Virus record (IMG/VR): IMGVR_UViG_3300043449_000994
Span: 1-43,886 of that record
Length of the DNA stretch: 43,886 nt
From: a virus
Strand: one strand, 5' to 3'
Shown: positions 1,345 through 16,348 of the stretch, in pieces
Position numbering within the stretch: the stretch's first letter is position 1
How the letters are laid out: every line of letters begins with the position of its first letter
Notes under the pieces: model-generated
The model's input: only the letters and a program-made list of their open reading frames with translations
What the model was told of the DNA's origin: nothing
Databases searched by the model: none
Position numbers and translations under genes: made by a program

Positions 1345-4300
1345 CTACAAAAGCAACTCATCGTAGAGCTTGTAAGCCGGCAGCGCCTCAACGATCCACT
1401 TGTGCATCGCCTCCGGATCGTCACTGCCAATCGCCTTGAGTCCCTTACGACCCTGCTGCAGTGCCGCACCGGCAAAGCTTTCATAGCCACCGCCACCCCA
1501 ATCCAGATCCTGCTGAGAGTCGATGAAGAACTGACCCGTACCAGTGAGACCTGAACGTTCTACACCTCTCTTCAGGTAGTCAGCTGCTCCCCAGTCTTTC
1601 TTGTAAGGAGGCTCTTCACCAGCGTTGACAATCATATCCTTCATGAAGTCTGCAGCGATCATACCCGGCACGTACAAAGACGCAATAAGTGCCGGTTTGA
1701 AATTACCGTGACTCATCTCATGAGAGATCCTCTGAGTGATCGTCATGTTAAAGCTCCATACGAACTGTTTAAGGTGCGCAATTGGTGCTAGGTAGGGGTT
1801 ACTAACCCATGTAGGAGTTTCTGCGCTAGAGGGGTTCAGAAGAGACTGACGGACCACTTTCTCCGTAGCGTTACGTAGTTTTTCTTCCAGCGCCTGAGCA
1901 GCTTCTTTAGTCATCTTCGGATTGGCTGCTTTGATCTCATCCGCACGTAGTGCAATTCGACCAAGGCTAGAACTAAAAATGATATCCGCTTTGGTCAGCC
2001 CCAGCTCCTCCAGATAACGCGCACTCTGCTCAGCGCCAAAGAAATCTTCAGCACTACGCTGCATGAACAGCTGAGCCGCCTTAACAGCCATGATGGTGTT
2101 ATTACGAATCCAGCCGCTGAGCAGGTTGTACTTGAACAGCTTGTCGTTTATGTCTTTCGACCTACCACTAAGAGTCATACCGTCGTAGCGGTTGTAGGCA
2201 TTGATGACCGTACCAGAGTCGGCAATGATCCCCCAGTCTTGTGCTATCTGTTCCCATTGATCCCGCGTGTAATTCTCCTTCCACTCCTTGAACATGTTCT
2301 TCACGGAGTAGGTGAACGTCTCCCAGCCAGCTTTCACGCTGTTGGTACGGATAGCTACACCCAGTGGATCGACCAGCGAGGAGAAGATAGCTAGAGGTAG
2401 AAGCCGAAGGTTCTGATACGTGAGCAGAGCACCGAACAGATCCTTGAGTTCTCGACTCATACCCACTTCTTTATTACCCAGCAGACCGTTGATGTAGTCT
2501 CTGGCCAGAGCTTCATCGTCAGCCGTAGCACCGTAGCGAGTCTTGGCTTCAGCAATCAGCTTCTCCAGCTTGATTCCATTTACGCCATAGGCACGTACAA
2601 ATTCAGCCTGTCGAGTAGCCTGTTTGATATACCTGACAGCAGTGTGTACAGGATCGTCCTCCATGAACTGGCGGCGGTCTTTTACGTCGATGAAATCAAG
2701 CGTACGCTCTCTGGCATGACCTGCTACAGGCTCTTTCTCAGCGCCCATAACGTCTACCAGATCCTCACCCCTGTCCAGATAAGAAGTGATGGAGTCATAG
2801 ATCTCGTCCGGAGTCTTCCTCAGAGTAGCCATCTTGTCAGCATATTTTGGCTGACGCAGCATCTTGAGAAACTCTTCCTTGTTCTCCGCTACCTTTTCCG
2901 GATCGAAAGCCAGAGGATAGTAGTTCTTCTTTTCTCCGATATTTACCTTAGCGTCTCTCTGATACTGAAGCATTTGGCCGTAGAACGCACGGAGAGCCTG
3001 AGCACGCTTCTTAACCAGAGGGTCCCTAGTAGGTATGCGGTTAAATATTAAAGCGTCGTGTACGGCCAGCAGCTGCTCTTCAGTCAGGTCTCCCAGAATC
3101 TTGTTCACCTTGTTCTGGAACGCTTGTGACTCGTTACGCATACGCTGAATAAGACCACCAGTGTTACCCTCTACACCTTGAGCCTGATAGCCCAGTTCGG
3201 CAATCTTGGCCAGAGGAGGAATGTTCGAGTTATGCAGTCGAGAATACGCAGCCGTGAAAATCACATCGTATAGCTTCTCAACAGCCGCCCATGCGTCCTT
3301 ACCCAGCTTGAGTGCCTTGTCTCCAGTAGTCATGTTCTTGTCCAGAACTCTCTGAACAGGAGTAGCCCCTCTTTTGGCTCGTTCACCACTAGCGAAGTCC
3401 TTGAAGATCATCTCAGCTTTCATATTGTTATCCATGATACTGAGGACCTTGTATATCCAGTCTTTTAGCTTCTGGAACAGAGACTCAGTCTTTGGACCAA
3501 CTTTGAGAATATTTGGGTCAGCTACCCACAGCTGAAAGCCATAAGCTGCAGCTTCCTCACCATTCTCCAGAGCTGCTAACACACCCGAATCGTTCTTGAA
3601 GTACTCTTTCAGCTTCTTAGCCACAGGCCCCTGTGTAAAGGCAGTAGCAAGAATGCGCCTTTCTTCCTTACTGAAGAAGAATTCAAAAGCCGCATGGAGA
3701 GATTCATGATCGGCATGAGCTATATTGTTTTCAGCACCAGTAGCTAGTTTGATAACGCCAAGAAGAGCTTTGTCTTTGATCAGCTCCTGTTCTTTAACTA
3801 GAATCTTTTCGATCTTGGCATCGATTTCCGCGTCATTCAAGCCGGATTTTCTGTTTGCCAACTCATCGATCTTCTTGTCATTGAGTAGATCTCTACGGTC
3901 ATCACGAATTTTTTTCAGAGCTTTCTTGATATCTTCAAACGAACCTTGAGCGTTGTTTTCTAACGTTTCGTCAAATAGAACCGCGACTCTTTTGCCAAGG
4001 AGCTTCTCAACTCTGTCGACAAAAGCTTTCTGAGCGGGGGTCTTCCTAGGCTTTTTAGGCGCAGGACTAGACGCTCCAGAAGGAGGAATGGGTGGAGTAG
4101 CGGGGGGCTGAGCAGGGGACTTTTTCTGACTACCGAACAAGTCAACTGGCTCTCCACCACCGGGAGGAGTTTGTTCTTCAGAATTTGATCCTCCGAACAA
4201 GTCAACTGGCTCTCCACCACCGGGAGGAGTTTCCTGAGTTTCCTGAGTTTCCTGAGTTTCCTGAACCGGATTTTCATTCAACCAGTCCTGAACTGCATTC

Positions 4301-7300
4301 AGGTGGATATCAGTTTCATCCGGTTTGTAGTACCCAACTTTTTTTCCACGAAGGCCCTGAAGAGCCGCAGCAAACTCAGAATCTTTCGACGCGCGGTTAT
4401 ATAGCGCTTCTTTATACTTAGTGACCGCTTCGGCACGAGTGAGTGTACCGCCAGCATCTTTAGCCACAAACGGATTGCCTAGCCATCCACGTTCGCCCGG
4501 CTTAGCATTAAGGATATGTTTCCCACCGTATCTATGCCCGTCGATGACATCTGCAGGCGGTTCGGTTCTGAACGGAAGTTTTACAATCTCAAACGCGTTG
4601 GGTTTTTGGGCATTTTGGCTCTCACTCGTTTGCCCAGAATCAGCTGCCTGCAGCTCAGCAAGCTTGCTTTGCAGATAGGCGAACGTCTTCGGAGCACGTT
4701 GTTTGAGCTGCGCCCTGCCAGTACCAAGACCGTCGCGAGGAATGACGATAGGCTTGTCACGTGGGATCTTGGCGATGGCTGCATCGATTGCGGCCTTGTT
4801 CTGCTCCAGCTCGCCGTCAGTGAAGAAAGAGCCCTCGCTCATGGACGGAGCTTTCTTGGTTGGGATACCGAACGCGTTTGGCTCACCGCGCATGGCCCTA
4901 GCCTGACCACCCAACCCTTTCTGCGTTAAGTTGTCGCCGAAAATGAAGGTCTTGTCCCTATTGTTGCGGACGTATTCTCTAGTGATGACAGCAGGCTCTT
5001 TTTCACCCGTTTGCCCAGATTTTTGAGCCTCTCCACTAGGAGACGTTTGTTCTTTAATAAACGCCACAAAGCGGGCTTGGCCATCGGTAGTGGCCAAGTT
5101 GAACACCGGGATACCCTTGCGCGAAGCCATGTCGATAGCTTGCCCAGTACCGCCTGTTTGTCTAGAACGAGCGGCGCTGCTTTCAGCACCGTCACGTGTC
5201 CATGTCAAAACAAAATCGACAGGTGTATTAAGGCCAGCACCAAAAATCTGATTGGTGTTACGCGCCATTAAATTTAACGGAAACTGTTTGAGCGCATCGG
5301 GATTCGGGTGAATCTCACGGGCAATGGCGCGAGTCTGATCTGTTGCGTGCTTGGCTAAGAAAATTTCTTTCCGTGTACCTGCACCAGCTTCGAAAGCAGA
5401 ATCAGCACCTTGTGCTCCTCCAGACCGCAGTGTATAGCCCAGTTCGCTAAGACGTTTAGCGAACTTAGTCATAAGCTGCTGTATTTCTGGTGGAGTTTCG
5501 CGAGAGCCAATACCCGCGTAAGTCATCGTACGTTGACCGGCTTCATACGCAGGCAGCTTGTCGAATTCAGGAGTTTTGCTTTCTTGGCTCTTACCCGTTT
5601 GCCCAGATTCGTTCTCAGCAGCAAGGGATTCAATCCATTGTTTGTAAGTCAGGTTTGGTTGGAACTTACTAACAACTTGATTGAAGAATTTCTGCAGAGT
5701 GGCACGCAGACTTTCCCAGAACGATCGTTCCTCGGCGCTGATAGCGCGGTCCATGTTATTTTCAACATATTTGTTGAATTGCTCTGCCATCCACTCTTCG
5801 AAGGAAGTTAGATACTTCCCGTATTCCGGATTGGATTTTAGAGTTTTGACCAGAGCGTCGTAGCTCTCACCAAAAGCTTCGTCAAACTTACCTGCCTTCA
5901 GTGAATCGATAAACTCTTCATGTCCGAAAACTTTTGAAGCGCTGAGTATGGCCCTATGATTTTCAAACGTGTTGCCCCAGAAAGCTTTCTGGTCCGCTTT
6001 CCACGCCGCTTTTAACTCGTTTTTAGTTTTCGCATCCAGCTGCTCCCACATGATGTTGTGGATAGCATGACCGAACTCATGGGCCAGAGTAGCCAGCTGC
6101 GTACCTTCAGCTTGATTATCTCTGAACAGAACGATGTAGTTTGTATCGCCGAGGCGCTTGTGAATCCCTCTTGATTTTGCAAGAGGTCGCTCAACAGCAG
6201 ACTGCAGAAGCTCGTATTCCTTAGTATCTTTAGAAATCTCTATTACACGAACCTTCCCCTTTCCTCCGAGGAATTTCTTGATCCATGACTCAGCAGTCTT
6301 CTGCTTCAGGCCGGTAGTGGGTAGAGCATCAAGCGCTGCTTTTACCTTCTCGTCAGTGGTCTGAATCTCTGTTTCGCTATTAGATAAACGATCTCTTATT
6401 GCTTTGAATTGCGTACGTAGATTTTTAACTTGTTCTTCAGTCAGTTCACCCTTGGCTTTTTCGACCTCCATCCCAATACCCAATAGATCACGCGGATCTT
6501 TGGCCTCGTTGAACGCTCTGGTCAGAGAATCGAATTTCGATTCAGCCGGAGTGCTCCCGAACAGATCCGTAGGCTCTCCACCACCGGGAGGAGTTTTTTG
6601 AATAGGTTCTTGAATAGTAGTTTCAGGCGAAACCTCAGTGTTTACGGGGGTTTGAGCCGTTTCCTGAATAGATTCCTGAATAGATTCCTGAATAGGAGCT
6701 TGAGTCTGAGTCTGAGTCTGAGTCTGAGTCTGAGTCTGAGTCTGAGTCTGATCGACCGGAGCCTGAATAGGCCCTTGAACCGGAACAATCGGCCTACTCA
6801 ACTTCTCAATAACAACTTTTCGTAGACGATTCGCTTCGTTTATCGATACGCTACCTTTCTTGACTCTTATTTTCTTACGGACAGCCGCAAGCTCTTCCGG
6901 AGACGTAGCGCTATCAATCGCCGAAAGCAGCTCCGTAGCTTTCGGTCCATAAGACATCAGTTCAGTTTTCTTAGCCTCATAATCAGCCTGAACAGCCGCC
7001 TGCTGTTTCCCATTCAGCGTGTCTTTATTTCTTTCTACAGCTTCTAAGCTTTCTAGCGTATTAGCTTTGGATATCTCACCACGTACCGCCAGCTCAGTCT
7101 CAAAATCAGGTTCGGTGGGAAGGCTATATACAGTCGGTTCACGCCCAGTGCTGGCAGTTCTAGCACGTACCGCCATCTCCTTATTCATAGGAGTGCCGAG
7201 ACTGGCCTCAAACTCGGAATCAATCTTCTCGTCCTGAGTAGGTTCTGTACCAGCCGCTCTGTCCACAGAATCACTACCTGAGCCAATAGCTACCTCAGTT

Positions 7301-10300
7301 GGTAAGCCTTCTTCGACAAAGCTACGCAGGTGGCTACCATCGGGTAGCTTGAGCATAGACCGACCCTGACCAAGGCCTTCGAGAATACGGGCACCTTCAG
7401 AAAGAGTAACGTCTCGGTTCTTTCTAGCTTCCTTTAGAAGGCGACTTTTAAAAGCTCTGTCAGAAGCTCCGCTTTTTCTGAGTTTAAGTTTTTCTTCAGG
7501 TGTGAAATCACCGGCTTCTATACGCGCTACGTTTTCATCAAGGACAGATTTTCTGTCATAAGCGTCGGCCAGAGTTTCTACGTGATCTTGAGTAATATCA
7601 CCATTGCGAAGAGCTTCCTGAAGTGCGGATTTTTCCTCATTTACCTGAGTCTTTTTGATGGTTTCAAAACGAGCGGCATGAATTTTAGTAAGAGCTCGGT
7701 CAGGCGAGATTCCTTCTCTCTTGGCAAGAGCGTCTACTTCCTTTTTCAAAGCAATCAGCGGCTGCTTCTCAGCTTTAGTACCCTGTGCCTTGATACCATC
7801 TTCTAGGCTACTAGCTGTATCGAAGCGAGTCAGGACTTCATGCTCAGCACTCAGCTTTTCTGAGGTTGGAGGAGTCCAAGTCTTTCTCTCTCCAAATTTT
7901 TTTAGATTGTAGGGATCTTCGCCTTTCTCCCTACGGACAACTTTACCGCCAGCAAAGGCATTCTTAGGATCGATTTGTACCTTCAGCTGTTTATCGCCGA
8001 ATGTAATACCTTTATCAGCGAGTGTAGCGACCAGATTGCTATAACGCATTGCCGCGTTTTCGTCAGCAGACAGAGAATCGTCATACTCACTTACATGCTC
8101 GTCAAAAGATTCTCGATTATCTTCCTGTCTAGCCATAGACACCAAAGACATCGGGCTGATATCCAGCGTCAAAGAGCCGTCTTTATTAAGCTTTTTACCC
8201 AGCGATTGAGCGAATTCTTCTACACCTTCTCCGGAAACCGTAATCGGAGTCTGTGTATTTTTGCTCTTGCTGTATTGAGGATCGGCCAGAGACTCAGCGA
8301 TGGTTTTTTCATTGAACGGAGACGCGTTGCTACGTTCAATATCCATCCGATTTCCATCGGAATCGTAAGCCGCTACTTGATTCCCATCAGCATCAAGAAC
8401 CGATTCCGTCTCGGTTTCAGAATCAGGCAAAGCCGTACGAGAATAATCCACAGCATGAAGAGGAGTGGAACCCATCTCTTCACGAATCTGTCGGTCTTCT
8501 TCCCGCTTAAGAACCGAGTCGGTTTGTTCAACCAACGATGCATAAATTGATTCAGGAGATTTCCCTTCAGGCGCAACGGCGCTGAGGTCCATCCGGTGTG
8601 TACCCGGTTTTTGAGCGCTATCTTTCTTAGCAAGAGTTTCCAGCAGACTCCGTTGATCTTGAGACAGGTCCTCTATAGGAGTAGCGGCTATTTTCTGAAG
8701 GGCCGGAACGTACTCACGCCCCAGACCATTCTCGGCAGCAAAAGCGAGAACATTCGACCCAGTGATTTTTCTGGTTTCTAGATCACGTTCTCCTTTAGCA
8801 AAGGCATCCAAAACGGATATAAAATCAGTGCCTGTTTCTTCATTCCATTGACGGATACCTTCCGAAATAATTGGATTTCTAGCAATACCTTCTTCAGTAA
8901 ACAGAGCTGGATTCTGAGCACCGAGAGACATCAACTCGGCCATATCTCTACGCTGGTTGATAGAAGCGTTTTTGACTACGTTGTCTAGAACCGAATTGAT
9001 TCCGCGCAGACGCTCAAGAGTGCCTTTTACATCGACATCGAAGCGCGATGCTTTCTGATCAGAGTTTTCTGTGACAGATTTATACAGACCCTTGACTGTA
9101 TCTCCCAGCCAACTAAATGCCTTAGGCGCGTCTTCCTTAACACGGTCTTTTATGCGACCTGCTGCAATACCAGCGCCTTCAGCAAAGTCTTTGCCGGTCT
9201 CAGCTTTGAGAGTCAGCTTGAATGCTTCCCAGTCCGACGCAGTTTTAGCTCCTAGAGTAGAAGCATCTTGAATAAACCGATCACGAATGACAGGGTCTTT
9301 GATGTTGTCAGCTATGAACTTGTTAACGTCCATAGCAGTTTTACCGACAATATCACCAGCTTTGTCGATACCTTCCTTACGCATATAGTCGATACCTTGA
9401 CCGACTACCGGAGCTATGTTTTCTTTGTAATCAGCTACACCTTTGTCATAGGCTTTATGAGCCTCAGCCAAGGCATTAAGGGTCATGTTTCCTACATCAA
9501 CACCGAACTGTTCAGGATCATCCGCTACGCTCTGTAGCTTGCCAATGATCGTGTCGAAGGTAAGCGGTCCCTCTTCTTTCGGTTTCTCAGAAGTAGAAAC
9601 GAAATCAGAGATAGGAACGGCATTATCACGAAGAGCTTGTATTGAGCCGCCGACAGCACCCATCGGAGCACCGGCTACAGCACCTTTGATCATTGCCTCG
9701 CGAGTCTGATCAAAATTAAACTGGCTCTGCGGATTCAGATACTTCAGCGCAGCCTGACTAGTCAGATCCTGTAAACCTTCTTCTCCACCTTCGGCAGCAC
9801 CTGTCCGAAGAGCAGACAGTCCGACAGTCTTAGCAGCGTTCTTTAGCCCTACGCCTGAAGTGATGCCCTTACCCAGCAGAGACGGAATAACCAGAGCCTG
9901 TTCTGGAGTATTCTCGAGAAGAGCGTTACCTACACCCACGGCTGTAGCCATAGCCGCACGTTTCCACGCGGGCTGCTGCATGGCTACGGGATCGTTCAGT
10001 GTATCGAGAACCTGACCGCCTCCTTCCATAGGGACGAGCGGTGCCGCACCTCCGACTAGGCCCCCTACAACACCTTTTAGAACTCTGCCACCTAAACCAC
10101 CTGCGAGACCGATGGCCGTGGACGGAAGACCCTCACCAATCGCTCCAGCGGCGTAATCTATGGCCGAACCTATCGAATTAACATCTTTAGATTCAGCCAC
10201 TGCGGGAGCCCATGCCTTAGGCATGTTAGCTATGTTTTGAGCAGCCTGTTGCTGCGTGCGCAATCCTGCTTCTGGATTAATCAGTTCCTGTAACTGCCCA

Positions 10301-10515
10301 CCGAATGCTCTACTAGCTTCTAGCGCACTGTATCCGCTGCGGCGAAGTCCTTTTACGAACTCGCCACCACTGTACATAGCATCTAAGTCAGCCTGGATGC
10401 CCTCATTAGGACTAACAGGCTGACCATTTCGTAGCCTAGTGGCGATCCCGTATCTTCTTTCAGCCGACTCTTCTAGAGGAGATAAAGGAAGCGGAGCGCG
10501 CAGAGAATCATTCAT
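1345..10515 (-). CDS. Giant polyvalent virion/ejection protein (3056 aa)
   Basis: Residues ~130-290 are Gly/Ala-rich and hydrophobic, like membrane-seeking ejection proteins. ~1256-1271 is a TQ repeat. HEFGH at 1479-1483 and HESLH at 2270-2274 are two zinc-peptidase motifs. ~1665-1815 (TYAGIGSRETPP, LRSGGAQGAD) is a SLOG/DprA-type nucleotide-binding domain. ~1843-1955 (FIFGDN, GLGGQARA) resembles DUF7831. ~1975-2081 (GWLGNPF, LRGKKVGYYKP) resembles DUF4326 but lacks its usual cysteines. The helical C-terminus (~2600-2960) resembles the LPD38 region of large polyvalent proteins. The motif TPPGGGEPxDLFG occurs at 1308, 2096 and 2116 between modules. Such proteins are typically packaged and injected with phage DNA. 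It is the last gene of the late block. Domain names are from recognition, not a search; enzymatic activity is inferred. Confidence 0.85.
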   Translation of the reverse strand: MNDSLRAPLPLSPLEESAERRYGIATRLRNGQPVSPNEGIQADLDAMYSGGEFVKGLRRSGYSALEASRAFGGQLQELINPEAGLRTQQQAAQNIANMPKAWAPAVAESKDVNSIGSAIDYAAGAIGEGLPSTAIGLAGGLGGRVLKGVVGGLVGGAAPLVPMEGGGQVLDTLNDPVAMQQPAWKRAAMATAVGVGNALLENTPEQALVIPSLLGKGITSGVGLKNAAKTVGLSALRTGAAEGGEEGLQDLTSQAALKYLNPQSQFNFDQTREAMIKGAVAGAPMGAVGGSIQALRDNAVPISDFVSTSEKPKEEGPLTFDTIIGKLQSVADDPEQFGVDVGNMTLNALAEAHKAYDKGVADYKENIAPVVGQGIDYMRKEGIDKAGDIVGKTAMDVNKFIADNIKDPVIRDRFIQDASTLGAKTASDWEAFKLTLKAETGKDFAEGAGIAAGRIKDRVKEDAPKAFSWLGDTVKGLYKSVTENSDQKASRFDVDVKGTLERLRGINSVLDNVVKNASINQRRDMAELMSLGAQNPALFTEEGIARNPIISEGIRQWNEETGTDFISVLDAFAKGERDLETRKITGSNVLAFAAENGLGREYVPALQKIAATPIEDLSQDQRSLLETLAKKDSAQKPGTHRMDLSAVAPEGKSPESIYASLVEQTDSVLKREEDRQIREEMGSTPLHAVDYSRTALPDSETETESVLDADGNQVAAYDSDGNRMDIERSNASPFNEKTIAESLADPQYSKSKNTQTPITVSGEGVEEFAQSLGKKLNKDGSLTLDISPMSLVSMARQEDNRESFDEHVSEYDDSLSADENAAMRYSNLVATLADKGITFGDKQLKVQIDPKNAFAGGKVVRREKGEDPYNLKKFGERKTWTPPTSEKLSAEHEVLTRFDTASSLEDGIKAQGTKAEKQPLIALKKEVDALAKREGISPDRALTKIHAARFETIKKTQVNEEKSALQEALRNGDITQDHVETLADAYDRKSVLDENVARIEAGDFTPEEKLKLRKSGASDRAFKSRLLKEARKNRDVTLSEGARILEGLGQGRSMLKLPDGSHLRSFVEEGLPTEVAIGSGSDSVDRAAGTEPTQDEKIDSEFEASLGTPMNKEMAVRARTASTGREPTVYSLPTEPDFETELAVRGEISKANTLESLEAVERNKDTLNGKQQAAVQADYEAKKTELMSYGPKATELLSAIDSATSPEELAAVRKKIRVKKGSVSINEANRLRKVVIEKLSRPIVPVQGPIQAPVDQTQTQTQTQTQTQTQTQAPIQESIQESIQETAQTPVNTEVSPETTIQEPIQKTPPGGGEPTDLFGSTPAESKFDSLTRAFNEAKDPRDLLGIGMEVEKAKGELTEEQVKNLRTQFKAIRDRLSNSETEIQTTDEKVKAALDALPTTGLKQKTAESWIKKFLGGKGKVRVIEISKDTKEYELLQSAVERPLAKSRGIHKRLGDTNYIVLFRDNQAEGTQLATLAHEFGHAIHNIMWEQLDAKTKNELKAAWKADQKAFWGNTFENHRAILSASKVFGHEEFIDSLKAGKFDEAFGESYDALVKTLKSNPEYGKYLTSFEEWMAEQFNKYVENNMDRAISAEERSFWESLRATLQKFFNQVVSKFQPNLTYKQWIESLAAENESGQTGKSQESKTPEFDKLPAYEAGQRTMTYAGIGSRETPPEIQQLMTKFAKRLSELGYTLRSGGAQGADSAFEAGAGTRKEIFLAKHATDQTRAIAREIHPNPDALKQFPLNLMARNTNQIFGAGLNTPVDFVLTWTRDGAESSAARSRQTGGTGQAIDMASRKGIPVFNLATTDGQARFVAFIKEQTSPSGEAQKSGQTGEKEPAVITREYVRNNRDKTFIFGDNLTQKGLGGQARAMRGEPNAFGIPTKKAPSMSEGSFFTDGELEQNKAAIDAAIAKIPRDKPIVIPRDGLGTGRAQLKQRAPKTFAYLQSKLAELQAADSGQTSESQNAQKPNAFEIVKLPFRTEPPADVIDGHRYGGKHILNAKPGERGWLGNPFVAKDAGGTLTRAEAVTKYKEALYNRASKDSEFAAALQGLRGKKVGYYKPDETDIHLNAVQDWLNENPVQETQETQETQETPPGGGEPVDLFGGSNSEEQTPPGGGEPVDLFGSQKKSPAQPPATPPIPPSGASSPAPKKPRKTPAQKAFVDRVEKLLGKRVAVLFDETLENNAQGSFEDIKKALKKIRDDRRDLLNDKKIDELANRKSGLNDAEIDAKIEKILVKEQELIKDKALLGVIKLATGAENNIAHADHESLHAAFEFFFSKEERRILATAFTQGPVAKKLKEYFKNDSGVLAALENGEEAAAYGFQLWVADPNILKVGPKTESLFQKLKDWIYKVLSIMDNNMKAEMIFKDFASGERAKRGATPVQRVLDKNMTTGDKALKLGKDAWAAVEKLYDVIFTAAYSRLHNSNIPPLAKIAELGYQAQGVEGNTGGLIQRMRNESQAFQNKVNKILGDLTEEQLLAVHDALIFNRIPTRDPLVKKRAQALRAFYGQMLQYQRDAKVNIGEKKNYYPLAFDPEKVAENKEEFLKMLRQPKYADKMATLRKTPDEIYDSITSYLDRGEDLVDVMGAEKEPVAGHARERTLDFIDVKDRRQFMEDDPVHTAVRYIKQATRQAEFVRAYGVNGIKLEKLIAEAKTRYGATADDEALARDYINGLLGNKEVGMSRELKDLFGALLTYQNLRLLPLAIFSSLVDPLGVAIRTNSVKAGWETFTYSVKNMFKEWKENYTRDQWEQIAQDWGIIADSGTVINAYNRYDGMTLSGRSKDINDKLFKYNLLSGWIRNNTIMAVKAAQLFMQRSAEDFFGAEQSARYLEELGLTKADIIFSSSLGRIALRADEIKAANPKMTKEAAQALEEKLRNATEKVVRQSLLNPSSAETPTWVSNPYLAPIAHLKQFVWSFNMTITQRISHEMSHGNFKPALIASLYVPGMIAADFMKDMIVNAGEEPPYKKDWGAADYLKRGVERSGLTGTGQFFIDSQQDLDWGGGGYESFAGAALQQGRKGLKAIGSDDPEAMHKWIVEALPAYKLYDELLL
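4133..4232 (-). repeat. 40-bp direct repeat pair within the giant gene
   Basis: An identical 40-bp segment occurs at 4133-4172 and 4193-4232, start to start 60 bp, encoding two copies of TPPGGGEPVDLFG. It is followed by four copies of a 9-bp unit (to 4264) encoding the QET repeat. A third, diverged copy of the motif lies near 6555-6594. These sit in disordered linkers between domains. Confidence 0.85.
6701..6750 (-). repeat. Hexanucleotide tandem repeat (TGAGTC, about 8 copies)
   Basis: Eight perfect TGAGTC units plus a partial one, encoding a Thr-Gln dipeptide run in the giant protein. The unit is a multiple of three, so copy-number changes keep the frame. The repeat lies just upstream of the first peptidase module and acts as a flexible linker. 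Confidence 0.9.
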
Positions 10516-10516
10516 A

Positions 10517-12985
10517 TTAATTTTCTGGATAATCGAAACTATCGACTAGGTCGGATCTTAAACCACCAGACTGCCTATCTCTAAAGACTCTGTTACCCAG
10601 ACCGACAAAATTACCGCTAGCGTCTCTAATAGAGCGGTATTTTGGATTTTTTCGAGAGAAAAAATTCGAATTCAAATAATCCTGCCAGCTAACGTCGCCT
10701 CTGGTGACAGCATCAAGCATACTTGGCGCATCACCGACTTTATAGTCTTTAGGACTCAATAGCTTTTTAGGCACCATCCCGCCTTCTTCCTGAGCAATAT
10801 CGCCTATATTCTGAGTAAATGCTAACGGCATATCTCTCGTAGCTAACGCTTCACGGACCTCTTGTGGAGTCATTTTTCCAAGATCTCTTCCATCGTTCTT
10901 GAGATCATCACTGACCATATTGTAATAACGCTGCGCTGCTGCCGGATCAGACTTTCCATCCAGGCCCGGTAAAGCTTCCGCAAGTATGTCAGCAAGAGCT
11001 TTATCTTGTTTCCTATGTTCGTCAGCAGACTTAAACGTTGCATCCATGTATTCTTTAGCCGACAGCCCGCCGCCATTACCAATAGTTGCTAACTTCGATA
11101 AAGCTTCATACGGAGCCAGCTTTGTCTGTACGGTACGTAAACCAGCTTCCGACGAGAGGTTATCGTTATTATACATTTGAGCCTGCAAGTTAAACGCCTT
11201 AGCCATACCCGGATCTTGTAGCAGTGAATTCAGGTTATTCATAATCGGATTACTGAATCCGTTAGGACCGACGCGACCAGCCCTAAGAATACCCATATCG
11301 TCTTTATAGCTGACGAAATCGCCCTGCTGGAACGGAGCTCTCATACCGCCGATATAGACGGACTTGTCTTTCGGACTAAATGCAGCAGGAGCAGTAGGAA
11401 CTTGCTGAAAATCTCTACGCAAGCCGCCAGCCATATCACGAGCTAGCTTGCTAGCCCAGTCGAGAGTAAGACCCCCTTCAGCACTTGTACCAGTACCGGG
11501 ACGCACGCGAGCGGTTTCTCTAGCCGGCATAAGATTCCCCTGTCTATCCATCTTCATAACACCAGACGCTTCTGGAGCTGACCTAGTCGGAGTCCTTGGA
11601 GCATTGGCAATATCAGCAGCGAAGGATGATTTCTTTGCGGCTATGTCTGCAAAATTGTCTTTGTAGTCGTACCATTTACCTGTGTCTAATCCATTTTTTG
11701 CTAGGTTGTATGGAAGCGCCACACCGTTTGCTATGTTAGCTCCTACGTCCGACATCACTCCAGCACCACGGACAGCCATATCGCCGGTAAGGGTTGTAGG
11801 AGGATTTACCCCTATACGCTTGGCGTAATCTTCGGTCGGAGTATTGAATCCATCGTAAGCTGCTTTCATTCCAGCGGCTGGCAAACCCACCCTGACCGCT
11901 AGAGTAGGAAGTCCTTCCAAAGCACCAGCCGTTGTACGAGCAACTTTAGTGGCCGCTCTCCCAACGCCTTTTGCCACATCACCTACTGAAGTAGTATTAG
12001 ATCCGTTTAGCGCATTACGGATATTACTTAGTTTGCTAACATCCGGAGCGGCAGGAGTCTTTGCATTAAACCCCCGTTCAAGCGGCGTGAAATTTCTCAA
12101 ATTCGCAGACGGTATCGGTCTTCCGGCAATTCTTCCGTCCGGAGATACATACATCGTCCCGGTTGACGGAGCAGGTTGGCGTAATGCAGCCCTAGCATCC
12201 ATCATTTTTTCCATTGCGGCTTTTTTGAAAACTTCATCGACGCCGCTGGCAAAATACTGAGGTTTACGGAGCCCTACCCGCTCTGTTCCTTTTGAGAAGT
12301 ACCGCGCCCGCTCGTTAGCTTCACGCATAGCGGATTGAGCCGCACCAATGCCTTCCTGAGTGGCCTCCTGCGCTGCCTGCTGGCCATAGCTCAGACCACT
12401 GCTCACCGCCTCCTGTGCCGCGCTCAGGCCTTTAGACAGGCCATCGCTATCGATCCCAACGGGCCTTCTCATGGACCGATTGCCGCCGAACAAACCCCGC
12501 TGCGCCATCGTGTATTGCTGCTTGAAGGCATCGGCTTCTGGGTTGTTAATCTCGCCCAAGCTGCGCGTGTTACCTAGAAACGCCTGATCCCGCGCCTCAC
12601 TCGGTCCGCCCGCTAATCCCGCCGGGTCCATGTACCGATTGGCGGCTCGAACCTCATTTGGTTTGAACGTGTCCGGGTTGCTCAGAATCTCGTCAACTCG
12701 CTGATTGCCCAGTGAGGCCAAGTCAGGCATAACCGGCTGCATCTCAGGCTGCGTATTTTCCGGCTGCATACCATCATCGCCCAGCGCCTTGTACTGAGGT
12801 CTGCGAAGACCCGCAGCTTCATTCAAGGCTCGCACATTACCTCGCCCAAGCATTTCAGCCGCGCCGGGAGATAGCACCGCTTCGCCGGGCGTCAACCACG
12901 CGGGAATAATGTCAGTGCCTTTGGGTTTGCCCGGAACCTTCGGGAGTCCCTTGGATGCGTAACAGGGGTTGCGTTTTGTTTTCAT
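10517..12985 (-). CDS. Large virion protein with tape-measure-like N-terminal motif (~822 aa)
   Basis: The start is taken at the ATG at 12985 (MKTKRNPCYASKGLPK); a GTG at 13039 would add 18 residues overlapping the preceding gene. No strong Shine-Dalgarno is visible for either. Near the N-terminus is TDIIPAWLTPGEAVLSP, a motif common in phage structural proteins of tape-measure or minor-virion type. An Ala/Gln-rich helical stretch and a Gly/Ala-rich hydrophobic segment (GLPTLAVRVGLPAAG) follow. The motif GLR(R/K)PQY occurs twice, about 170 residues apart. It lies between the coiled-coil protein and the giant protein, so it is probably an internal or ejected virion component. Base composition changes sharply near 12300. 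No enzymatic domain seen. Confidence 0.75.
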   Translation of the reverse strand: MKTKRNPCYASKGLPKVPGKPKGTDIIPAWLTPGEAVLSPGAAEMLGRGNVRALNEAAGLRRPQYKALGDDGMQPENTQPEMQPVMPDLASLGNQRVDEILSNPDTFKPNEVRAANRYMDPAGLAGGPSEARDQAFLGNTRSLGEINNPEADAFKQQYTMAQRGLFGGNRSMRRPVGIDSDGLSKGLSAAQEAVSSGLSYGQQAAQEATQEGIGAAQSAMREANERARYFSKGTERVGLRKPQYFASGVDEVFKKAAMEKMMDARAALRQPAPSTGTMYVSPDGRIAGRPIPSANLRNFTPLERGFNAKTPAAPDVSKLSNIRNALNGSNTTSVGDVAKGVGRAATKVARTTAGALEGLPTLAVRVGLPAAGMKAAYDGFNTPTEDYAKRIGVNPPTTLTGDMAVRGAGVMSDVGANIANGVALPYNLAKNGLDTGKWYDYKDNFADIAAKKSSFAADIANAPRTPTRSAPEASGVMKMDRQGNLMPARETARVRPGTGTSAEGGLTLDWASKLARDMAGGLRRDFQQVPTAPAAFSPKDKSVYIGGMRAPFQQGDFVSYKDDMGILRAGRVGPNGFSNPIMNNLNSLLQDPGMAKAFNLQAQMYNNDNLSSEAGLRTVQTKLAPYEALSKLATIGNGGGLSAKEYMDATFKSADEHRKQDKALADILAEALPGLDGKSDPAAAQRYYNMVSDDLKNDGRDLGKMTPQEVREALATRDMPLAFTQNIGDIAQEEGGMVPKKLLSPKDYKVGDAPSMLDAVTRGDVSWQDYLNSNFFSRKNPKYRSIRDASGNFVGLGNRVFRDRQSGGLRSDLVDSFDYPEN

Positions 12986-13001
12986 GGGTGGATGCCTGTG
13001 T

Positions 13002-16000
13002 TTAAGATGAGCCGTCATTTGGGCCAGCATCGGCTGCACCCGATCTGACTACCGTGAAGCTATTGCTTCTGCTATCGCTTGCCACGTTCGTTGAGGATGT
13101 GCTGGTGCCGTTCGACACGGCAAAGCTGCTGCTGTCGCTGGCACTGGCACTCGTACTGGCATTGCTGCTTACACTGGTGCTGGTGCTGGCGCTGATGCTC
13201 TGGCTGCTGCTAGCACTGCGGCTTTCGCTATCGCTTGTGCTGGTGCTGTTGGAGTTGCCAAAGCTGTCGCTCATGCTGGCACTGATATTGACGCTGCTCA
13301 TAGCGCTGCTGGCCAGGTTGCCGGCTATCCGCCCGGTCGCTTCCACCGCGGCGGAATAGGTCTGCCACTTGGTCTGCACCACGCTGATGACGGACTTCAA
13401 CACATCCAGCTGCGCCTGAACGCTCTTAACCTGCGAGTCTAGCGTGTAGGTATTTACCTTCACCTCGGCCTCCAGCTCCGATACCTGCGAGTCAATGTCG
13501 GTCTTGTAGGCGTTGATTTCGCCGGTATACGCACCGATGATGGCACCCACCCGCTTGCTCTCGGCCTCCACAATGGACGTAAATGCCTCCGTCTCGGCCT
13601 TGAACACTTCCACCGGCAGTTTCTTGACTTGCGCCAACAGATTGCCGATGGCTGTTTCGGCCTGAGTGCGGGCCTGATAAGCATCTACCTTGCCCTTGTA
13701 CACCTCCAGCGGCAACAGAGTCTTCTTCAGTTCAAGCTCTGACTTTTTGCTGATGCCCTCAACATTGGCCGCGTAACCTGAGACGGAAGCCTTGTAGGTT
13801 TCGAGCGGCAACTTAACGATGTCGAGGTTCACCAAAGCCTTGGCCTTCTCCGCATCGACGGCTGCGGAATAGCCCTTCACCTGCGTGTCATAGACTTCAT
13901 GCGGGAGTTTGATGACATCCAGCCCGATCTTGCCTTTTTGTACTTGAGCATCGACGTTGGCTTGATAGGCTCTCACCTTGCTATCATAACCCACGAAGTC
14001 CAGTTTCGCGACCTCGGTTTCTGCGGTGGCTTTGGTTCTGACGGCATCGACATAGGACGCATAGCCCTTCACGCGGCTGTCGTAAATTTCCGTGGGGAGT
14101 TTCGCCAAGTCCACTTCAATCCTCGCCTGACTGATGGCGGCCTCGACTTGCGCTTGGTAGCCTTTCAGTTGGCTGTCGAATTTCTGAAGCGGCAACTTCG
14201 CCAGTTCCAATTCGACATTGGCCTTGGTCTTCGCGCCTTCCATCTGCGCCGAGTAACCGCGAATGTCCGTCTCATATTTCTGCAAGGGCAGTTTCGCTAA
14301 CTCAATCTCGGCATTGGTCTTGGTCTGAGCGGCATCGACTTGCGCGGCATAGCCTTGGATTCTGGCCTGGAACAAATCAATCGGTAGCTTCTGGCTCTGA
14401 AGTTCGACTTCGGCCTGACTGCGCTTGGCGTCCACCAATCCGCGATAGGCGTCCACTTTGGCTTTGAACACGTCGGCATCGGCCTTGTAGGTTTCCAGTT
14501 CCCAGAGAGACGCATTGACCGCCTTGGCCCAGCTATCCCACTGGGTTCCATTAGCCTGAACCTTGGCTGAGAACGCCTGAATCTGAGCGCCGAATACCTC
14601 GACCTTGGTTTTCTCTAGTTCCAGTCGTTGCCTTGCCGCCTCAAACGCCAGCTTGTTCGTGGTTTCCCAGACGCTGGCTTGTGCCTGAAGGATCGCCACC
14701 TCCACATTCACGCGCTGCTGCATGATCTGGTAGACCTGCACCATCAATTCGATACTGGCTTTCTGCGCTTCAAATAGGCGCTGCCGCATCTGGTTGGTGT
14801 AGTTCATCATCTGCGTTTCAAGCTGCATCGTGGTGCTGAACGCGAATTGCAGGTTCTTCTGCTCCAGTTCAGCCTGAGCCACGGCGACAGAGCGGGACTC
14901 TTCCACGGTCTTATTCACCGCTTCCTGCTCGGCTTGCAGCAAAGCATTTGCCATTGAAGGCGCAGGCATCGTCCAGCCGGCCGCACTCCAGGATCGGGTG
15001 ACGTTGTTCTTTAAGCGCCTGACCTCGGCATTGGTGCGCTCACGGGCTCTATCCCAGATGGCTTTCTCAACATTCTCACTGAGTCCGGTTGAGAATAAGC
15101 CATTGATCCAGCCCAGCAGCTTATTGTTGAAAGCCTGCAAGAGCGTCGAGTCGTACATGGTTTCCGACCATGAGAACTCAGGTATCTCAATATCTGGGAT
15201 TGGCGTGATGGTCGGCGGGACAAATGTAGTGACCGTCGGGGATTCCTGAAACTCAACGCTGGGAGATACAGGAACCGGTTCATTGAAGGTCGGAGGGCGT
15301 TCTGGCAAATCAATCGTCGGCTTGTCGCCTTCAAAGGTCGGCTCAACCGGGAGGTTGTCCAGCGATACCGCTGATACCGTAGGAGAAACGGGCACATCGG
15401 GCGCGGTAAAGGTGGCGGAACTCAGCACGGGAGAATCCGGCATAGACGGATAGTCCACCGTGATACTGCCGGGTAGGGAAGGCTCAGGGACCGGACTTAC
15501 TGTCGCAATCGAAACCGGGTTCGGGTCAGGCGGTGCTTGAGGTGGATCAGTTATATCCACCGTGATGGTCTTCGGCGTCGGCGGATCGGCTATTGGATCA
15601 GGAATGACGAACGCGGGCGTTTCGCCCGAATAAGCCGGAGCCGTCGGAGCGGTCGGCGTCTGGAAATTGATCTGACTGGCGTCTATCGCATCCGGCGCAG
15701 GGAACTCGTTAATGATCCCCACTTGGTAATCATCGCCCAGTCCGTCCAGCGCACTGTCGTCAGGCGCGGTCAGGTCTTTCGGCACACTGGGCAACGGGAT
15801 GCTGTCATAGTCCGCCTGAAACGCCTGCCAGTCCGGCTTCTCGCCAATCTCCATCTTGATTTCAGACTTGACCAACGGATCGGGCTTGCCCTCACGGACA
15901 ATCGTCGTAGTGATGGGTGGAGGCGGATCAATGGTCGTATCGCCCACGGTCGGTATCAGGGGCGTCGGGATATTGACGATCTGATCCAGTATCGGCCCGA

Positions 16001-16121
16001 TGTCTGCCACCGTCTGGAGCGCGGCATCAATCATGTCGCCAGCGTGTCCCAGTATTGACGGGGCGAACGAGCCAACTATTCCAGCAGCGTTGTTGTTTGA
16101 TGGAAGGGTATCTAAAGCCAT
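13002..16121 (-). CDS. Coiled-coil virion protein with 32-residue repeats and Ser-rich tail (~1039 aa)
   Basis: The ATG at 16121 (MALDTLPSNN) is preferred over a TTG at 16136. The first third is proline-rich and disordered. A long helical region follows, with nine consecutive 32-residue repeats (13524-14387) of the form LPxxxYxxxxxGYxAxVxA...LxxAK. The last ~100 residues are almost pure Ser/Thr/Asn/Ala (SSSQSISASTSTSVSS). The helical repeats predict a long rod or fibrous bundle; the composition suggests a tail-shaft, spike-stalk or ejection-tube part. It sits between the proline-rich peptide and the ~820-aa virion protein. No catalytic motif; family not recognised. Confidence 0.75.
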   Translation of the reverse strand: MALDTLPSNNNAAGIVGSFAPSILGHAGDMIDAALQTVADIGPILDQIVNIPTPLIPTVGDTTIDPPPPITTTIVREGKPDPLVKSEIKMEIGEKPDWQAFQADYDSIPLPSVPKDLTAPDDSALDGLGDDYQVGIINEFPAPDAIDASQINFQTPTAPTAPAYSGETPAFVIPDPIADPPTPKTITVDITDPPQAPPDPNPVSIATVSPVPEPSLPGSITVDYPSMPDSPVLSSATFTAPDVPVSPTVSAVSLDNLPVEPTFEGDKPTIDLPERPPTFNEPVPVSPSVEFQESPTVTTFVPPTITPIPDIEIPEFSWSETMYDSTLLQAFNNKLLGWINGLFSTGLSENVEKAIWDRARERTNAEVRRLKNNVTRSWSAAGWTMPAPSMANALLQAEQEAVNKTVEESRSVAVAQAELEQKNLQFAFSTTMQLETQMMNYTNQMRQRLFEAQKASIELMVQVYQIMQQRVNVEVAILQAQASVWETTNKLAFEAARQRLELEKTKVEVFGAQIQAFSAKVQANGTQWDSWAKAVNASLWELETYKADADVFKAKVDAYRGLVDAKRSQAEVELQSQKLPIDLFQARIQGYAAQVDAAQTKTNAEIELAKLPLQKYETDIRGYSAQMEGAKTKANVELELAKLPLQKFDSQLKGYQAQVEAAISQARIEVDLAKLPTEIYDSRVKGYASYVDAVRTKATAETEVAKLDFVGYDSKVRAYQANVDAQVQKGKIGLDVIKLPHEVYDTQVKGYSAAVDAEKAKALVNLDIVKLPLETYKASVSGYAANVEGISKKSELELKKTLLPLEVYKGKVDAYQARTQAETAIGNLLAQVKKLPVEVFKAETEAFTSIVEAESKRVGAIIGAYTGEINAYKTDIDSQVSELEAEVKVNTYTLDSQVKSVQAQLDVLKSVISVVQTKWQTYSAAVEATGRIAGNLASSAMSSVNISASMSDSFGNSNSTSTSDSESRSASSSQSISASTSTSVSSNASTSASASDSSSFAVSNGTSTSSTNVASDSRSNSFTVVRSGAADAGPNDGSS
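13524..14387 (-). repeat. Nine 96-bp (32-residue) repeats
   Basis: Units begin LPIDLF, LPLQKY, LPLQKF, LPTEIY, LDFVGY, LPHEVY, LPLETY, LPLEVY, LPVEVF, each 32 residues after the last. An aromatic residue recurs at positions 6 and 13. The repeats are diverged at DNA level, so they are old and under protein-level selection. Confidence 0.8.
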
Positions 16122-16132
16122 AATCTTTCTCG

Positions 16133-16348
16133 TCAAATATCGGGTGTGTCGGACGGCACTGCGGGCATGGGCGGCAAACCGGGCATTTCAGGCAGACTGG
16201 GGGTGAGCGGCATGGGTGGCATGTCCGGCAGACTGGGAGCCGCTGGCGACGGCGGGAGGCTCGGCATATTTGCCTTGGGTGGGGGAGGCAAATGTGGAAC
16301 GGGTGGCGCGTAGGGTTTGGGGAATGTGGGGATAGGTATGATTGCCAT
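16133..16348 (-). CDS. Proline-rich small peptide
   Basis: A 71-aa product, about 40% proline, with repeated PxLPxMPxxP patterns (SLPDMPPMPLTPSLPEMP). It is certainly disordered or polyproline-helical, with no signal peptide or cysteine. The stop overlaps the alternative TTG start of the coiled-coil gene, whose own N-terminus is also proline-rich. It may be a virion linker or clasp peptide; function unknown. The gene is short but has a proper start, a tight position and a distinctive composition. Confidence 0.6.
   Translation of the reverse strand: MAIIPIPTFPKPYAPPVPHLPPPPKANMPSLPPSPAAPSLPDMPPMPLTPSLPEMPGLPPMPAVPSDTPDI

Follow-up and report, generated by a model that had tools for sequence, protein, structure and literature searches.

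The virus record IMGVR_UViG_3300043449_000994 comprises 43,886 bases, all of which were analysed here (the window). On its complementary strand an uninterrupted frame from ATG to stop at positions 1345-10515 encodes a giant protein of 3056 amino acids (aa), which carries a block of three consecutive small domains: SLOG, DUF7831 and DUF4326-like. The initial annotation, made from the letters of the sequence, had placed such a stack at residues 1665-2081, which map to window positions 4273-5523, and had linked it to the handling of nucleotides or derivatives of nicotinamide adenine dinucleotide (NAD). We found the three domains at residues 1663-2083. The profile search that the annotation had proposed for this region matched all three families in the order given (residues 1663-1826, 1842-1950 and 2011-2061), leaving none of the calls without a family match. 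Because two of the domains score far over their cut-offs, and the weak DUF4326 match is backed by an alignment of about 100 residues to relatives, the predicted stack is not a chance match.

The SLOG domain (residues 1663-1826, positions 5038-5529) is DprA-like and matched phrog_768 in hmmscan with an E-value of 7e-46, bearing out its original name; Pfam DNA_processg_A scored 18 bits on this region, under the cut-off of 29.6. The glycine-rich SLOG motifs (GIGSR, SGGAxGAD and GGTG) are retained in the window copy, as are 29/29 positions that at least 90% of 76 relatives conserve. Conceivably, this domain produces or modifies a nucleotide signal through which the host is steered, and DUF7831 and DUF4326 serve as switches, but the top-scoring family is DprA-like and not a known NAD-using SLOG, and we regard such a role as very unlikely.

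The DUF7831 domain (residues 1842-1950, positions 4666-4992) was called correctly from the start, matching PF25176 with 132 bits against a cut-off of 27 (E 1e-38). It keeps all 24 positions that at least 90% of 108 relatives conserve, these relatives being the distinct copies with 80 aa or more among all 124 loci. Because every highly conserved position is kept, the SLOG and DUF7831 domains of the window should be functional. Third-position GC is 0.66 in the DUF7831 part, compared with 0.41-0.42 in its two neighbours and 0.40-0.52 in the measured parts of the protein outside the block, and because of this difference a separate origin of the DUF7831 part fits the data. The chromosomal DUF7831 genes nearest to the window copy are those of Acidobacteria (66-69%).

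The third domain, DUF4326-like (residues ~1977-2083, positions 4267-4587), gave a marginal match to PF14216 (25.5 bits against a cut-off of 25, E 2e-5); together with the alignment to haloviral and phage copies, this upheld the call. In that alignment, YYKPDETD (residues 2062-2069, positions 4309-4332) replaces the CxC..C motif, in agreement with what had been noticed in the letters: the CxC...CH of the relatives becomes YYKPDETDIH in the window, where the histidine alone aligns and the motif cysteines are all lost. CxC..CH is kept in 77 of 80 phage DUF4326 loci, and the remaining three matches end before the motif. The phage DUF4326 proteins are small, with an open reading frame (ORF) of at least 300 aa in 0/80 loci. 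An AF2 model of the window domain (pLDDT 74), checked for a rhodanese-phosphatase fold, yielded no Foldseek match at E <= 0.001 and no VIA match at Z >= 2. Because the motif cysteines are lost, this copy is probably non-catalytic, either a binding domain or one in decay.

Comparison with homologues revealed a property of the block that the initial annotation had missed. The one close homologue found (L341, 2472 aa) aligned by blastp with residues 1-1166 (45% identity), 1457-1639 (34%) and 2092-3055 (71%) of the window protein. Residues 1457-1639 paired with 1340-1517 of the homologue and residues 2092-3055 with 1515-2472, and these last two segments abut at 1515-1517. Residues ~1640-2091 of the window protein (~452 residues, positions 4243-5598) are absent from L341, and a DUF7831 match is absent throughout its 70,920-base record. 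Because L341 is without exactly this block while both flanks are conserved, the SLOG-DUF7831-DUF4326 block is, judged by these alignments, a swappable or removable cassette. A more distant homologue (L014), related in its N- and C-terminal parts, has DUF7831 ahead of its C-terminal region; a search of its record gave no DprA-like SLOG and no DUF4326 match. For residues ~1640-1770 of L014, just ahead of its DUF7831, Pfam gave no match at E <= 0.01; the stretch resembles a further small domain. A viral scan using the whole stack found no relative. Conceivably, a structural protein carries the block along as a neutral or decaying passenger, since L341 is viable without it and the cysteine motif is gone from the DUF4326 copy. 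However, the full set of highly conserved SLOG and DUF7831 positions has been kept, and similar domain combinations recur on other carriers, so we consider this quite improbable.

The setting of the giant ORF points to a virion protein. With portal, major head, terminase and tail families represented among the neighbouring genes, the neighbourhood is, by predicted gene content, a tailed-phage structural region. Upstream of the ORF, the region 10517-16136 holds two further large ORFs, of 840 and 1044 aa, which match PHROGs of unknown function only. The C-terminal region (residues 2252-3000, positions 1516-3762) matched phrog_30152, labelled virion structural protein, at 4e-108, and the C-terminal part is homologous (32%) to ORF088 of Pseudomonas phage KPP25, deposited as 'structural protein'. 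Both results agree with the earlier placement of the stack inside a probable virion protein. KPP25 was not among the matches listed for the stack (60 of 1359 records).

The cassette sits between two HExxH motifs. The N-terminal one, zincin-like HEFGH (residues 1479-1483, positions 6067-6081), coincides with a weak Peptidase_M78 match (E 0.005, under the cut-off) and is present in L341 too. The C-terminal one, HESLH (residues 2270-2274, positions 3694-3708), was recognised by its motif, and an HExxH occurs at the matching position in L341 (1687) and L014 (2092). Two PPGGGEPVDLFG linker repeats follow immediately C-terminal of the cassette (positions 4132-4227); a third copy lies at 6556-6591, and L341 has two copies.

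Previous work had already predicted injected polyvalent proteins (PMC5512222), which in the available text of that paper are giant and multi-domain, with HExxH motifs, a virion-associated C-terminus and a domain block between two HExxH motifs. The window protein likewise combines a giant multi-domain architecture with HExxH and a virion-type region, the peptidase being represented by the motif and the weak M78 match, and its best reading is a polyvalent-type virion protein. It differs from the published examples in that presence of the cassette varies among close homologues; SLOG, moreover, is not mentioned in the main text of PMC5512222 as available.

The same domains were found on other viral carriers, for which we took the best 80 of 119 viral DUF7831 loci and the best 80 of 344 viral SLOG loci. 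DUF7831 lies inside ORFs of at least 1000 aa at 34 of its 80 loci, in 11 sequence clusters, and SLOG at 23 of 80; since giant ORFs often run past the end of the fetched locus, these lengths are lower bounds. Pfam scans covered 10 of the 34 giant DUF7831 ORFs (L009 without its first part) and three of the 23 giant SLOG ORFs. By these scans, one DUF7831 (L044) and the viral SLOG nearest to the window copy among the 80 loci (L261, 69% identity) are each carried on a virion RNA polymerase of the N4 type; no family was obtained for the remaining two SLOG ORFs. The virion RNA polymerase of N4 is packaged in the virion and injected. Such polymerases resemble the window protein in carrying, in related form, two of the three domains of the cassette; they differ in that no virion RNA polymerase family is among the Pfam matches listed for the window protein. 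Because proteins of this type carry a SLOG with 69% identity as well as another DUF7831, delivery of the cassette together with the DNA is likely by analogy. The initial claim of ejection with the DNA is therefore supported by analogy, to which the position between HExxH motifs adds.

Further carriers bear on what the domains might act upon. The ORF at L017 (4897-8136) is a family B DNA polymerase in which DUF7831 separates the exonuclease match from the polymerase match; its cluster comprises 14 contigs (L017, which was scanned, and 13 related ones). A single ORF at L016 (3004-12354) contains a NADAR match (E 3e-4, under the cut-off), DUF7831, an adjoining AAA_30/UvrD helicase and, further along, SLOG. 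A cpYpsA SLOG stands immediately ahead of DUF7831 at L010, and in Mesorhizobium phage Cp1R7A-A1 (L002) a DUF7831 gene (3977-4378) lies within 4 kb of genes for NAMPT, NMNAT and a tRNA splicing ligase. SLOG and DUF4326 genes are adjacent at viral loci L295 and L314. For L008, L009, L074, L075 and L059, the Pfam scan yielded no informative DUF7831 partner, and the L014 homologue completes the ten scanned ORFs.

The polymerase and helicase contexts would suit a cassette that targets DNA and not soluble messengers, in which the DprA-like SLOG binds incoming single-stranded DNA and DUF7831 removes adducts, such as DarT-type ADP-ribose on DNA, or acts in replication. The available text of PMC7824862 also proposes single-stranded DNA binding for phage DprA/SLOG and ties DUF4326 to replication or restriction-modification components, and in Acidobacteria DUF7831 lies near SSB and RNase H-like ORFs, both named by eye from their sequences. 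Nevertheless, the sharing of an ORF by SLOG, NADAR and DUF7831, and the proximity of DUF7831 to NAD-salvage genes, point to nucleotides, and a DNA target seems unlikely to us.

Chromosomal relatives, also overlooked at first, were found in Acidobacteria. A DUF4326 gene directly follows DUF7831 at three of 44 genome loci (L093, L094 and L099), and in 3/3 of these a YspA-like SLOG ORF lies upstream of the pair. Because DUF4326 was present in just 3/99 surveyed genomes of the phylum, chance adjacency of DUF7831 and DUF4326 is unlikely. Among the 26 loci L088-L113, which are acidobacterial save one labelled Patescibacteria, a SLOG ORF lies within ~2 kb upstream of DUF7831 in nine; DUF488 shares the ORF of DUF7831 in five and occupies a separate ORF farther downstream in 19. 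SLOG, DUF7831 and DUF488 are encoded within a single ORF at L106, where DUF488 carries CNC...CH, like DUF4326, and at L107 a weak Pfam DUF4326 match falls over DUF488. The long DUF7831-DUF488 ORFs of Acidobacteria metagenome-assembled contigs (L106, L100, L103, L107 and L111) are mostly without a family match, three of the five having been Pfam-scanned. The predicted triad thus has a chromosomal counterpart, both as neighbouring genes and as a one-polypeptide fusion (SLOG-DUF7831-DUF488).

We also considered whether DUF7831 is a divergent macro domain, for which the evidence is suggestive at most. With an AF2 model of pLDDT 90, VIA ranked macro domains first and second (Z 5.1 and 5.0; root-mean-square deviations of 3.8 and 4.1 over 106 and 107 residues), with a non-macro design close behind at 4.7 and Z-values of about 5 being common. 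Foldseek against the PDB gave nothing significant, its top rows being rhodaneses, and neither the DUF7831, SLOG or DUF4326 profiles nor a single-sequence search produced a convincing solved relative. Among viral predicted structures (BFVD), the significant matches to the model were DUF7831 proteins, from both phages and giant viruses, together with crAss-like phage proteins and one further entry. The giant viruses with a DUF7831-like fold in BFVD are Tupanvirus, Hyperionvirus and Yasminevirus.

In profile comparison, hhalign aligned 17-19 columns of DUF7831 and macro domains, one loop around GxGTG. Column shuffles reached the macro score in 0/120 cases for two small macro sets and in 23/120 for a 37-row set (not significant), and a further shuffle run gave 7/300; in the SLOG and DUF4326 controls, at least one of the 120 column shuffles scored as high. 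The spacing N-x6-GG occurs in 37/37 macro rows and fits N1862, G1869 and G1870 of DUF7831, which are conserved in 97-100% of the 108 relatives, and the stricter N-x6-GG-x2-A occurs in 35 of 108 DUF7831 copies and two of 37 macro rows. Alignment A2 comprised the window copy and 61 of 66 de-duplicated viral DUF7831 copies, the 66 having been kept from 80 with the string FGDN as key and rows without FGDN also merged. One might go on to propose that DUF7831 is a macro-like domain, strongly divergent and so far undescribed, mounted repeatedly on proteins that are first to reach the DNA (virion RNA polymerases, ejected giant proteins, DNA polymerase and helicase), and that SLOG-DUF7831-DUF4326 is a swappable cartridge that would clear ADP-ribose adducts or signals at entry, built from a gene set found in Acidobacteria too. 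We consider this proposal, taken as a whole, doubtful.

Taken together, we favour, with a probability of roughly 55%, the reading that the window encodes early anti-defence cargo: a polyvalent virion protein with a swappable cassette that would bind or process NAD/ADP-ribose-type nucleotides. The giant protein would enter the cell with the DNA, and an HExxH peptidase may free the cassette from it. SLOG and DUF7831 would then bind or hydrolyse defence-made nucleotides of this type ahead of phage gene expression, and the cysteine-less DUF4326 would bind only, or is decaying. Several points weigh against this reading. DUF7831 within a family B DNA polymerase does not suggest defence against a soluble messenger, and Pfam Macro (PF01661) was absent among the matches at E <= 1 for the window protein. 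The virion presence of the giant protein is drawn from database labels and analogy, and the virion proteins of phage tf were assigned from molecular weight alone. Finally, a partner search of 50 of the 80 viral DUF7831 records gave a DprA-like SLOG in five, DUF4326 over the cut-off in three and a three-domain ORF in none. Because none of these 50 records joins all three domains, the exact stack of the window is rare among them.

The favoured anti-defence reading extends published predictions. Fusions of SLOG, Macro, NADAR and DUF4326 in large DNA viruses have been predicted and proposed to counter ADP-ribose-derived signals (PMC9503650 and PMC7824862, in their available text); PMC7159879, as far as available, also concerns predicted nucleotide/NAD conflict systems. 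The window shares with such fusions the joining of SLOG and DUF4326 to a further predicted ADP-ribose-handling domain. It differs in having DUF7831 in the middle, in placing the stack within a giant virion-type protein and in its cysteine-less DUF4326; viral domains of this kind are typically standalone according to the accessible part of PMC9503650. Fusions of the SLOG/NADAR/DUF4326 type and injected polyvalent proteins are thus already known. The literature searched, which mostly excludes subscription papers, yielded no mention of 'DUF7831', of the exact SLOG-DUF7831-DUF4326 stack or of the cassette behaviour, and the DUF7831 within the stack, the exact order and the cassette behaviour are apparently new. 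Part of the initial interpretation held, namely the domain names, their order, the cysteine loss and the probable virion protein.

Two closely related virion proteins, one with and one without the 452-residue cassette, would provide a natural experiment for the published prediction of virion-delivered NAD/ADP-ribose countermeasures, and DUF7831, which giant phage proteins carry repeatedly, would be worth a biochemical assay.

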